A stretch of 32,872 nt of DNA, taken from positions 1 to 32,872 of the IMG/VR virus record IMGVR_UViG_3300042292_000593, one strand, 5' to 3'. Below, in pieces: positions 7,921-18,155 of this stretch (within the stretch, counting starts at the first letter, position 1; each line of letters starts with the position of its first letter). The DNA is from a virus. Position numbers and translations under genes: made by a program. Under the pieces are notes generated by a model. It did not search any database and had not been told where the DNA came from. It worked only from the letters and a program-made list of their open reading frames with translations.

Positions 7921-8391
7921 TTAAATAACGTGATATACAGACTTAGCGGCTAGATATGCTTGTCCAGCTTTCTCGGCTGTAGCAAATGTTCCTATATGAA
8001 TCAACTTGCTGTCAACTGTGATTTGCGCAACATATTTTTTGCGAAACATTGAGACGCCAATATAACCAGAGGTATTATCTTTTCGTATACTTTGATTCCA
8101 TAAGTTTTGCTGATTGGTAGCTTCGCGTAAGTTACATATCCTATTATCTGATCTAATTCTATTGATATGGTCAATCTGTTTTTCTGGAAAGCGACCATAA
8201 ACATACAGAAACGCCAATCTGTGTGCTTTATATCGTTTATTGTGTATCTTAATCAGTATATATCCATTTTCCTTTTTGCATCCAGCAATGCTTCCTGCTT
8301 TTACGCTGTTACGTTTAGAAGTCAACCATGTAAACAGGCCGGTTTCAGTATCGTAGTGCAGTAATTCTTTGAGCTGAGCTTGTGTAAGCAT
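7921..8391 (-). CDS. HNH homing endonuclease with AP2 domain (copy 1)
   Basis: This 156-residue protein has an N-terminal segment MLTQAQLKEL, then an HNH_3-type nuclease core (IDHINRIRSDNRICNLREAT, residues 73-92, with His75 and the Asn/His finger). A C-terminal AP2-like DNA-binding domain follows (about 100-150, SGYIGVSMFRKKYVAQITVD). Such free-standing enzymes cut at recombination-prone sites and copy themselves into phages lacking them. It is the only minus-strand gene right of 6277, enclosed by a terminator and its own promoter and structured leader. AAGGAG lies 7 bases before the ATG. It is a diverged paralogue of the gene at 13281. Confidence 0.9.
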   Translation of the reverse strand: MLTQAQLKELLHYDTETGLFTWLTSKRNSVKAGSIAGCKKENGYILIKIHNKRYKAHRLAFLYVYGRFPEKQIDHINRIRSDNRICNLREATNQQNLWNQSIRKDNTSGYIGVSMFRKKYVAQITVDSKLIHIGTFATAEKAGQAYLAAKSVYHVI

Positions 8392-8428
8392 ACGTGATCT
8401 CCTTGGTTATTGGCGGTTCATAGAGGAA

Positions 8429-8479
8429 GTGCGACTGTTAGTGAACCAGACTAACGAGGTTTCGAACCCTCTGTCGCAC
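8429..8479 (-). ncRNA. Three-way-junction RNA element upstream of HNH copy 1
   Basis: On the minus strand three perfect helices form a compact junction. The closing stem is GTGCGAC/GTCGCAC (8479-8473 with 8435-8429). Hairpin 1 is GAGG/CCTC with an 8-nt loop. Hairpin 2 is GTTAGT/ACTAAC with loop CTGGTTC. Single A residues link the closing stem to each hairpin and none separates the hairpins. It begins at the predicted +1 of the extended -10 promoter and ends 37 nt before the HNH ATG. The same layout precedes HNH copy 2. Confidence 0.75.
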
Positions 8480-8485
8480 GCATTC

Positions 8486-8494
8486 ATTATAACA
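8486..8494 (-). promoter_or_regulatory. Extended -10 promoter of HNH cassette 1
   Basis: The minus strand reads TGTTATAAT, a consensus extended -10 (TG-N-TATAAT); no good -35 is present, as allowed for this class. The predicted +1 is 8479, the first base of the three-way junction. Confidence 0.7.
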
Positions 8495-8496
8495 TA

Positions 8497-8528
8497 GTTC
8501 GATCCGGGGAGTGATCCCCGGATCGAAC
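8497..8528. repeat. Perfect 14-bp hairpin upstream of HNH cassette 1
   Basis: Arms GTTCGATCCGGGGA (8497-8510) and 8515-8528 are exact reverse complements around a GTGA loop. No U-tract follows on either strand. It separates the HNH cassette from the hairpin-rich region and may insulate or mark the cassette edge. Confidence 0.7.
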
Positions 8529-8975
8529 ACTTAGAGATTGTTTAGCGCTTGCTCTTTCGCTTGTACAGAAGGATATAGAGAGCAGCCCCTTGTGATTCAC
8601 ATGTTAACGCACAGTGATGGTTACCCGGCAGGTCCACGGGCCCCAACAAAACGATTCATTTCAAATGAAATGACAGACTAGCTTTCGTGTGATCCGAAAC
8701 GGTTTTTCACACAAAAGCAATATACGGCCTGCGTATATTATCGCGTCGTCAACTACGCGCCTGTCCTTGTTAAGGAGGGAGTTCGTAGCTTCACGGGCTA
8801 CAGGGTACAGGATGATGGCGCTAAGGCCGATTAAAGAGCTATCCTGATCCTCTTGATCGGGAGAGAGGTTTCCCGACTGCGTGCGAGCGTTACGCCGTAT
8901 GCCTATGTTGGCTGAGGGGTCAGTCCTCAGCCGTGTGCTATTCTAACCACACATATCACAACCTGTCAATTCCCT
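8529..8975. other. Hairpin-dense gene-free region A
   Basis: About 450 bases without a convincing ORF. Short perfect inverted repeats follow one another: 8656-8673 (8 bp), 8687-8712 (GTGTGA/TCACAC), 8719-8739 (AATATACG/CGTATATT), 8742-8759, 8764-8776, 8785-8801, 8808-8846 (CAGGAT/ATCCTG), 8858-8875 and 8910-8932 (GGCTGAGG/CCTCAGCC). The density suggests a structured RNA or a replication origin. No canonical tRNA was found, and I could not establish the strand. Confidence 0.5.
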
Positions 8976-9368
8976 ATGCAGCTAGTCCAACTACACCTCC
9001 CTTACCCACCCTCTACCAATCGCTATTGGCGCACCTTCAGAGGCAGAACTGTCCCAAGTAAGGAAGCAACGGCATTCAAGAGGATCGTCAAGGAGGCCAG
9101 CAAGCAACAGGACCTGTACAACGAGATCACCTGTAACGAGTTGTATGCTGGCGATGTTGAAGTTACAATACAGCTTCTTCCAAAGCTAACAGCAGCCGGG
9201 ATAGCTAGCAAAGTCTGCATTGACCTGGACAACTGTCTTAAGGTGTTGCTAGACGCTATACAAGGAACCTGTATTGAGGATGACAAGCAGGTTAAGCGGA
9301 TTGCTGCTGCTTACGGTGAACCTATAAAAAACGGTGGAGTGATAGTGACAGTATGCAAGATGAAATGA
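8976..9368 (+). CDS. rusA: RusA-family Holliday junction resolvase
   Basis: In this 130-residue protein the N terminus LHLPYPPSTNRYWR and the core IDLDNCLKVLLDAIQG (residues 82-97) are the RusA signature. Asp83, Asp85 and Lys89 match the catalytic metal-binding positions, and EDDKQV (101-106) supplies the last acidic residue. RusA dimers cut four-way junctions in recombination intermediates and resolve branched phage DNA before packaging. It would act on products of the Sak4-like/nuclease block. No clear Shine-Dalgarno precedes the ATG. The next gene overlaps its 3' end. Confidence 0.9.
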   Translation: MQLVQLHLPYPPSTNRYWRTFRGRTVPSKEATAFKRIVKEASKQQDLYNEITCNELYAGDVEVTIQLLPKLTAAGIASKVCIDLDNCLKVLLDAIQGTCIEDDKQVKRIAAAYGEPIKNGGVIVTVCKMK

Positions 9369-9562
9369 CGCACGTATCAGAGTATAAGCCCTACTGGAGA
9401 CACGTAGAGGACGGCCCTTACCCTAAGAATGCTAAGTGCCTATGGAAGACTGATCTAGGTGCTGCTACTATCGGAGTCTGGTACCCAGATAGCCAGTGGG
9501 TGTGGTGGTGTCCTTTACCCTCCCATCATCCCAAGGACAGGGAGCGGAGGTTGCATGGGTAA
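9365..9562 (+). CDS. Hypothetical protein, DUF551-like
   Basis: Two starts are possible: ATG 9353 inside rusA, or ATG 9365, which overlaps the rusA stop as ATGA and is preferred. The 65-residue protein is rich in aromatic residues (YWRHVEDGPYPKN, then WYPDSQWVWWCPLP). This resembles the small DUF551-type phage domain, where a tryptophan precedes a PLP motif. The resemblance is weak and the function is unknown. Confidence 0.55.
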   Translation: MTHVSEYKPYWRHVEDGPYPKNAKCLWKTDLGAATIGVWYPDSQWVWWCPLPSHHPKDRERRLHG

Positions 9563-9782
9563 GCGGCTAGAAGTGGAGGGTAAGGTGTATACACATTGGA
9601 CCGTGATCGGAGAGTCTGAGCCTGTGGACTACATCAAGAAAGGTAGGCCGGTTCAAGCAAGGGCTGTTGTAGTCCGGTGTGACTGTGGTACAATACGTTC
9701 CGTCCTACTGCATAACCTGTGCAGTAAGCGCAGTAAATCCTGTGGTTGCAGGGGTAAAACGACAACCAGAGTTTATGGGTGA
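9555..9782 (+). CDS. Small Cys-rich (CDCG/CGC) protein
   Basis: Start ATG 9555 (MGKRLEVEGKVYTHW...) is chosen because GGAGG lies 5 bases upstream; a longer frame to 9459 is an overlap artefact. The 75-residue protein contains CDCG near residue 43 and SCGCRG near 65. This zinc-binding arrangement is found alone or at the N terminus of phage HNH/AP2 proteins. A nucleic-acid-binding role is likely but unproved. Its last codons enter the first helix of hairpin-rich region B. Confidence 0.6.
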   Translation: MGKRLEVEGKVYTHWTVIGESEPVDYIKKGRPVQARAVVVRCDCGTIRSVLLHNLCSKRSKSCGCRGKTTTRVYG

Positions 9783-10145
9783 CAGGCGGTCTTAAATCCA
9801 TAGGGTTTAACAAAACGAGCCGTACTGTCACCCGCCATATAATGGTCCTCGGAATCTACTTTTCATCCTTGGGTGGGAGTCGATCAAAAATCTACCGGGG
9901 ACCAACTAACCCCGCGCCAGACGGTATCTGGCCCCGCTACGGGGATATGTAGCTACCCGCTTCATGCTCAGGGGAACAGAAGTCAGCATGACAGGCGTAG
10001 ACGGACTGCAAGCTGTCTCAATCGCTGAAGTACAGCGCGGGTTGTATGGCCCGCCGGATTAAGTCGCACCAGCTAGGGGCTTGCCCCGACACGACACTGA
10101 TCTGGAAAACACCACGCCGTCGCTGATTGGTACTCAGTGGGCGGC
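9777..10145 (+). other. Hairpin-dense gene-free region B, candidate structured RNA
   Basis: About 390 bases before the ATG at 10177 lack a convincing gene. Consecutive helices are visible: GGGTGACAG/CTGTCACCC closing 9777-9833 with an inner 8-bp stem; a 9-bp stem closing 9844-9903; GCCAGA/TCTGGC 9916-9932; CCCCG/CGGGG 9932-9944; TCATGCT/AGCATGA 9962-9991; CGCTG/CAGCG 10023-10037; GCGGG/CCCGC 10037-10054; GGGGC/GCCCC 10076-10087; and a two-part stem 10116-10145. Strand is assigned from flanking genes only. No tRNA, tmRNA or group I intron core was recognised. Confidence 0.5.
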
Positions 10146-10176
10146 ACTTAATCAAGAACTCAACAGGGGAGGAATA

Positions 10177-10368
10177 ATGGCTAACTTCGATCAGTGGTGG
10201 GATAACGATGAATCTATTGCTGATACACTCAAGATAACCAAGCAGCGTAATTACTTGATTGACCAAGTGCATCACATTGCACAGTCAATAGATAATGAGA
10301 TGCCGGACATGGCACTGATGAAGATCAGACAAACAATAGGTGTAATCAAGGAATGGAGAAATAGATAA
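10177..10368 (+). CDS. Hypothetical protein
   Basis: Start ATG 10177 follows GGGGAGGAATA, a strong ribosome binding site; the frame extends upstream to 10081 but through the hairpin-rich region. The 63-residue protein begins MANFDQWWDNDESI and is helical and acidic at the start, basic at the end (IKEWRNR). Its stop overlaps the next ATG (TAATG). No family is recognised. Confidence 0.6.
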   Translation: MANFDQWWDNDESIADTLKITKQRNYLIDQVHHIAQSIDNEMPDMALMKIRQTIGVIKEWRNR

Positions 10369-18112: not shown

Positions 18113-18125
18113 TTGCTCTACCTCG

Positions 18126-18155
18126 AAGGCGCTATGAAATACTAGCGCCTTTTTT
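18126..18155 (+). terminator. Intrinsic terminator after the scaffold gene
   Basis: A 9-bp stem AAGGCGCTA/TAGCGCCTT (18126-18134 with 18143-18151) with an 8-nt loop is followed by T to 18155. This is a standard Rho-independent terminator separating portal/scaffold transcription from coat-gene transcription. Confidence 0.85.

Follow-up and report, generated by a model that had tools for sequence, protein, structure and literature searches.

Does a hairpin-dense stretch without genes in a phage genome hold one structured RNA, the leader of the operon that follows it, or something else? To our knowledge, few conserved structured phage RNAs are known outside the model phages. The question is raised by an IMG/VR virus record of 32,872 bases (the window, by which we mean the whole stretch of DNA analysed), which encodes P22-type portal, terminase, scaffold and coat genes. 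The stretch concerned, region B, its flanking genes and the elements distinguished within it are as follows.

9555 to 9782, plus strand: upstream gene, encoding a small protein (PHROG 374, E 3.8e-8).
9777 to 10145, plus strand: region B, between the small gene at 9555-9782 and the 63-codon ORF at 10177.
9777 to 9833, plus strand: M1, with a 9-bp outer stem, a 3-bp CGG/CCG helix and the inner hairpin AAATCC-ATA-GGGTTT.
9844 to 9903, plus strand: M2, with a 9-bp outer stem, an inner hairpin and the constant 3′ motif CGATCAAA (9881-9888).
9916 to 9932, plus strand: M3, hairpin GCCAGA-CGGTA-TCTGGC.
9936 to 9953, plus strand: M3b, hairpin GCTAC...GTAGC.
10054 to 10105, plus strand: M4, a stem-loop group (CCGGATTAAGTCG...) seen only in the window and its relative L022 and predicted by two-sequence consensus.
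10116 to 10145, plus strand: M5, bulged hairpin GCCGTCGCTGA-TTGGTAC-TCAGTGGGCGGC.
10177 to 10368, plus strand: downstream gene, encoding a 63-aa protein of unassigned function.

The PHROG 374 match of the upstream product falls in the interior of a phage HNH endonuclease family and outside its nuclease domain, and the stop codon of this gene shares six bases with the first stem of region B. Searches of PHROG and Pfam gave no match for the 63-aa protein. Between these genes, the stretch is indeed gene-free, as an earlier note on this DNA had claimed: no ORF is conserved across it, and it is non-coding in relatives. A coding reading of M1-M2 was rejected, as ORFs of about 57 aa cross the two modules in some relatives but their frame is broken by 1- and 4-base indels. 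The two 9-bp closing stems claimed in the same note are both present, each with an inner hairpin within it. In M1, GGGTGACAG (9777-9785) pairs with CTGTCACCC (9825-9833), leaving the motif AACAAAACGA unpaired on the 3′ side at 9809-9818; in M2, GGTCCTCGG (9844-9852) pairs with CCGGGGACC (9895-9903), one of the pairs being T:G.

If these helices matter, their pairing should persist where their sequence does not. We obtained related contigs with proteins encoded nearby (RusA, MazG-like and 63-aa) as queries. Region B is kept in L022, L026 and L029, with divergent copies in L027 and L021/L024; at the corresponding place in a distant relative that has RusA and the upstream gene (L030), the element is absent. 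A covariance model of M1+M2 built from four close sequences matched both modules in L021, L024, L122, L123 and L027 (E 2e-6 to 2e-5), in L337 (3e-6) and in L262 (3e-5), and single modules more weakly in L258-L261 (E 0.002-0.01). The copies in L262, L258-L261 and L337 came from loci fetched with the downstream genes of L021 and L026, and the model recovered divergent copies absent from its training set. Some ten further phage contigs carry M1 and M2, their stems largely rewritten and the pairing kept.

As MAFFT misplaced the 3′ arms of diverged modules, we used hand-laid alignments, in which each row was checked to be a contiguous stretch of its source; in one alignment, L027 was joined without an extra module that it carries. 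Across six distinct sequences of M1+M2, 96.1% of 206 cells are paired and 15 of the 37 pairs are changed on both sides. In 500 shuffles, neither the paired percentage nor the double changes nor the covariation score was ever equalled, and when the partner was slid by one column the pairing fell to about 55%. In the counting alignments, whose 8-9 distinct rows were laid to the structure with N as filler so that the counts lean towards pairing, M1 (8 distinct rows) has 93.9% of its cells paired and 20 double-change cells, and M2 (9 distinct rows) 97.7% paired, with 13 pairs and 34 cells doubly changed. The covariation score was reached in 0/500 shuffles for either module; the number of doubly changed pairs in M1 was less unusual (58/500). 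Alignment with related phages, which the earlier note had proposed as a check, thus reveals strong compensatory change in both modules, and on this comparative evidence an RNA structure for M1 and M2 is well supported.

Both modules share one plan. They are asymmetric stem-loops of 48-65 nt, with a variable outer stem (8-14 bp across copies), an inner hairpin (stem of 4-13 bp, and 5 bp in L029 and L027) and an unpaired motif that stays constant on the 3′ side (AAYAWAACGA in M1, CGRTCAAA in M2). For the M1 outer stem, we count at least six different sequences, among them GGGTGACAG, GGGCGGCGG, GGGTGCTG and GGGAGCACT. The constant motif of some M2 copies could close a small third helix (AGTT-CGATCAA-AACT in L262; GGT/ACC in L027) that would present CGATCAA as a loop, an arrangement that is suggestive only. 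The same plan recurs in a further module that separates M1 from M2 in L262 (2838-2886) and L027 (2342-2404) and consists of GGGGCGG, an inner hairpin, ACTCAGCAAAAAA and CCGCCCC. The sequence ACCCTTTTA, or a similar one, comes after the modules in several relatives, including the L262 and L027 lineages.

Which strand, and which nucleic acid, does selection see? When the modules are read on the plus strand, the mRNA sense, their wobbles comprise 39 G:U cells versus 2 A:C cells. G:U pairs within the stems had been taken to favour RNA, and the retention of G:U with near absence of A:C bears this out. Together with the covariation and the loss of signal on a column shift, the preference for G:U over A:C makes selection in a plus-strand RNA the easiest explanation. 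The claim of a structured RNA therefore holds at the RNA level and in the operon sense. Folding energy was not used as an argument, because folding of the whole region is just mildly unusual (z -2.45 on the plus strand, where 2 in 100 shuffles are as stable, and -0.82 on the minus strand). M1 alone has z -5.85 on the plus strand (0/200 shuffles) and -3.58 on the minus strand, and among 120-base windows of region B, the one with M1 is the sole outlier, and on the plus strand only (-3.68 vs -1.22). The helices farther downstream are individually weaker; six pairs in them are doubly changed between the window and L022.

The strand bias also bears on a reading at the level of DNA, in which the hairpins would mediate module shuffling as linkers for recombination or as a replication site. 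The elements do coincide with junctions of changing genes, and the loop of M3 occurs in both orientations, as GCCAGCAGGTAGCTGGC in L262 and as its exact reverse complement in L261, so M3 itself might be such an element. However, G:U kept with A:C nearly absent is not expected of a DNA palindrome, and homologous recombination would not favour stems that diverge in sequence; for the region as a whole, we consider this reading decidedly improbable.

The hairpins downstream of M2 vary in how far comparison can reach them. M3, which lies directly 5′ of a 96-aa ‘DTIT’ gene in G013, G015 and G016, shows a compensatory change from A-T to C-G. Instead of the M3b stem GCTAC/GTAGC, L022 has GCCGA/TCGGC, with three double changes, and L026 has CTTC/GAAG. 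M4 hardly varies between its two sequences, too little for covariation to bear on the structure predicted for it. M5 occurs in five distinct sequences, in L262 behind a different gene, and in several relatives a ribosome-binding site follows it closely; its covariation is weak, one double change that alone is not significant.

Other phages show how these pieces relate to one another. M1, M2, M3 and M5 each form a separate intercistronic spacer elsewhere, M1 being a separate unit in L259 and L261 and M2 in L259. L259 (contig G013) shows M1, M2 and M3 apart: M1 follows a mazG-like gene on its own, an isolated M3 precedes the DTIT gene, and a solitary M2 comes 1.8 kb beyond M1, the interval holding thyX, M3 and the DTIT gene. 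In L029 and L021, the hairpins ahead of the next start codon are the first two only. In contigs read fully, M1 and M2 occur once each, or M2 is missing where the contig ends. All copies examined lie between the stop and start codons of co-directional genes; the modules overlap the upstream stop codon or start within about 12 bases of it, and a start codon follows. The suggestion that region B is a single RNA is not supported by these observations. As the modules are separate spacers elsewhere, region B of the window joins several elements, and its long version may have arisen by loss of the genes between successive elements, or the elements may have been joined before genes were inserted. A hairpin-dense, gene-free stretch can thus be several former spacers joined rather than one RNA, a caution for similar cases.

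Nor do the modules keep to particular genes. In relatives, the place upstream of M1 is taken by thyX or other genes instead of the 9555-9782 gene; across copies, the upstream neighbours include a zinc-finger gene, thyX and mazG-like genes, and the downstream neighbours are at least five different genes. The 63-aa gene is kept in relatives, where other genes are inserted between it and the RNA. With genes changing on both sides, the proposal that region B is the leader of the operon starting at 10177 is not supported. A riboswitch for a metabolite, or a leader dedicated to the downstream gene, would suit a structured RNA upstream of genes, with thyX and mazG-like genes nearby, but the downstream genes differ in most relatives and no riboswitch family matches; the changing neighbours argue against gene-specific control, and we give this reading very little credence. 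A gene for a glycine-rich protein with GDG/GYG repeats adjoins the RNA modules in L262 (3294-3626), L259 (3289-3566) and L021 (4603-4950).

The carriers are several unrelated freshwater phages, in which the elements lie between early genes. They span at least three lineages, marked by a P22-type portal, by a lambda gpA-type terminase, or by PolA and SNF2. In one carrier (G016, the contig of L262), the terminase is of the lambda gpA type and a capsid protein is HK97-like; two others (G003 and G009) encode a family A DNA polymerase together with an SNF2-type helicase, and nothing in them matches the portal or terminase of the window. Common to these phages are M1, M2 and some small early genes, in places with 97-100% protein identity. 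Judging from these sequences, either the elements moved between lineages or the surrounding gene cassette may have done so. A pair of small RNA shapes, maintained through compensatory changes, thus accompanies shuffled early genes in phages whose capsid and packaging genes are unrelated.

We also looked for a known or wider family. No Rfam 15 family reaches its gathering threshold in the window or in five relatives; near region B, matches were at chance level. Searches by blastn gave nothing for M1-M3 among 50,697 phage records and nothing for region B among 72,556 plasmids. Motif scans of IMG/VR recovered the relatives already known, another two close copies (L122 and L123) and chance matches without the structure. 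A motif scan of genome contigs yielded 118 stretches, of which one had the inner-hairpin sequence upstream; its fold lacks the M1 outer stem, and it was rejected. No match was found in 299 genomes from the family of a Polaromonas MAG, a weak result, as the host is not identified and the search had no positive control.

Another stretch of the window, region A (8480-8975), had been tentatively linked to region B through AACAAAACGA, which occurs twice in the window, at 8645-8654 and 9809-9818. The M1+M2 covariance model matches 9777-9903 only and neither strand of region A; region A as a second copy was therefore rejected, and the shared AACAAAACGA is probably chance. On either strand, region A shows unusual structure (z about -5), and it has a perfect 14-bp hairpin at 8497-8528. 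The strongest promoter-like site of the neighbourhood lies at 8940-8969 on the minus strand (TTGACA-18-TAGAAT), with similar sequence in L022 and L026, and would drive a leftward transcript across region A. Downstream of it, GCTCTTTAA at 8831-8839 on the minus strand resembles a boxA core, is followed by a small hairpin and is identical in L022 and L026; it is possibly a nut-like antitermination site. Farther along, an HNH endonuclease gene (7921-8391, minus strand) is not seen at the corresponding place in L022 and is probably an insertion.

What, then, might the modules do? They are non-coding elements with compensatory structure on the mRNA-sense strand, each present in single copy, and they have exchangeable neighbours in unrelated lineages. 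A single transcript would run across the modules and their flanking genes. A consensus promoter scan of the plus strand over 8400-9777, with non-consensus promoters outside its reach, found none, and the module follows three cistrons; on the plus strand there is no promoter-like site in or beside region B and nothing terminator-like (a GC-rich stem with a T run) in 9777-10176.

One of the two main rival readings is that modules are cut from the operon transcript and act in trans, targeting host or phage RNA or protein through their constant motifs. Motifs that stay constant while stems are rewritten, one copy per genome, indifferent neighbours and presence in unrelated lineages would all suit such a small RNA. 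Against it, no promoter or terminator of its own was found, and the modules are always in operon sense, fitted tightly between stop and start codons; we regard a trans-acting RNA as doubtful.

The second is modelled on HK022, in which putRNA is about 70 nt with two stem-loops, and putL lies directly downstream of an early promoter and putR about 270 nt downstream (PMC9378689). The HK022 RNA is marked by its binding to the beta′ zinc-binding domain and by terminator read-through. Nascent M1/M2 would bind the elongating host RNA polymerase, which would then pass pause or termination sites down the rightward operon. M1+M2 are likewise two adjacent bulged stem-loops, and like the HK022 RNA, which belongs to early transcripts, they would be phage cis RNAs independent of neighbouring genes (PMC9378689), as exchangeable neighbours demand. 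Farther down the same rightward gene run, between the scaffold and coat genes, there is a good intrinsic terminator (18125-18152, plus strand). However, M1 and M2, adjacent in most genomes, are 1.8 kb apart in G013 and need not act as a pair, so they do not form a strict two-stem-loop unit; they lie between cistrons with no recognisable early promoter or consensus plus-strand promoter close upstream, and they match no Rfam family of any kind. A put-like role is thus unlikely in our view.

Changing neighbours count against a riboswitch, and the independence of M1 from M2 against a strict put pair; we therefore lean towards an element that acts in cis on mRNA. We propose, with a probability of roughly 0.45, that region B is a pile-up of cis-encoded structured RNA elements acting on their own polycistronic mRNA, in processing, stability or insulation; both the function and the cis action are inferred from sequence comparison. 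The modules, which sit singly between small early genes in other phages, would act on the mRNA that carries them. A host factor might read the constant motif and process or stabilise the transcript, or separate the translation of the flanking genes. Two points speak against an RNase III-like nuclease as the agent: the constant unpaired motifs are longer than needed, and the 5-bp inner stems of L029 and L027 are short. Direct translational control is not obvious, as the modules leave the ribosome-binding site uncovered. More tentatively, M1 and M2 may be founders of an exchangeable class of phage RNA that works in cis whatever the surrounding genes and is traded between unrelated lineages, probably via common host machinery such as RNA polymerase or an RNase. 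If action in cis on host machinery is correct, such a module would be a portable device that makes any inserted gene work in an operon.

Compared with the curated families of Rfam 15, the modules likewise keep their structure by covariation, and differ in belonging to none by gathering threshold. The PeSL cassettes of T4-type phages, which Arbiol and colleagues reportedly described in 2010 (a study cited in PMC4177764), are said to be stem-loops in spacers at junctions of shuffled small early genes, with an early promoter. Our modules also lie at such junctions, but no sigma-70-like promoter was found with them, and here it is RNA structure that is conserved. The RNase III sites of T7, such as R1.1, have two helical segments of about one turn each around an internal loop; the modules have outer stems of 8-14 bp and inner stems of 4-13 bp, and an internal loop would likewise lie between them. 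These sites are intercistronic hairpins of about 60 nt in polycistronic early phage mRNA (PMC4858673). The modules differ in their constant unpaired motifs of 8-10 nt and, in some copies, short inner stems; cleavage would be a candidate activity. They are like the T7 sites in being intercistronic and in mRNA sense, on what we take to be a common transcript.
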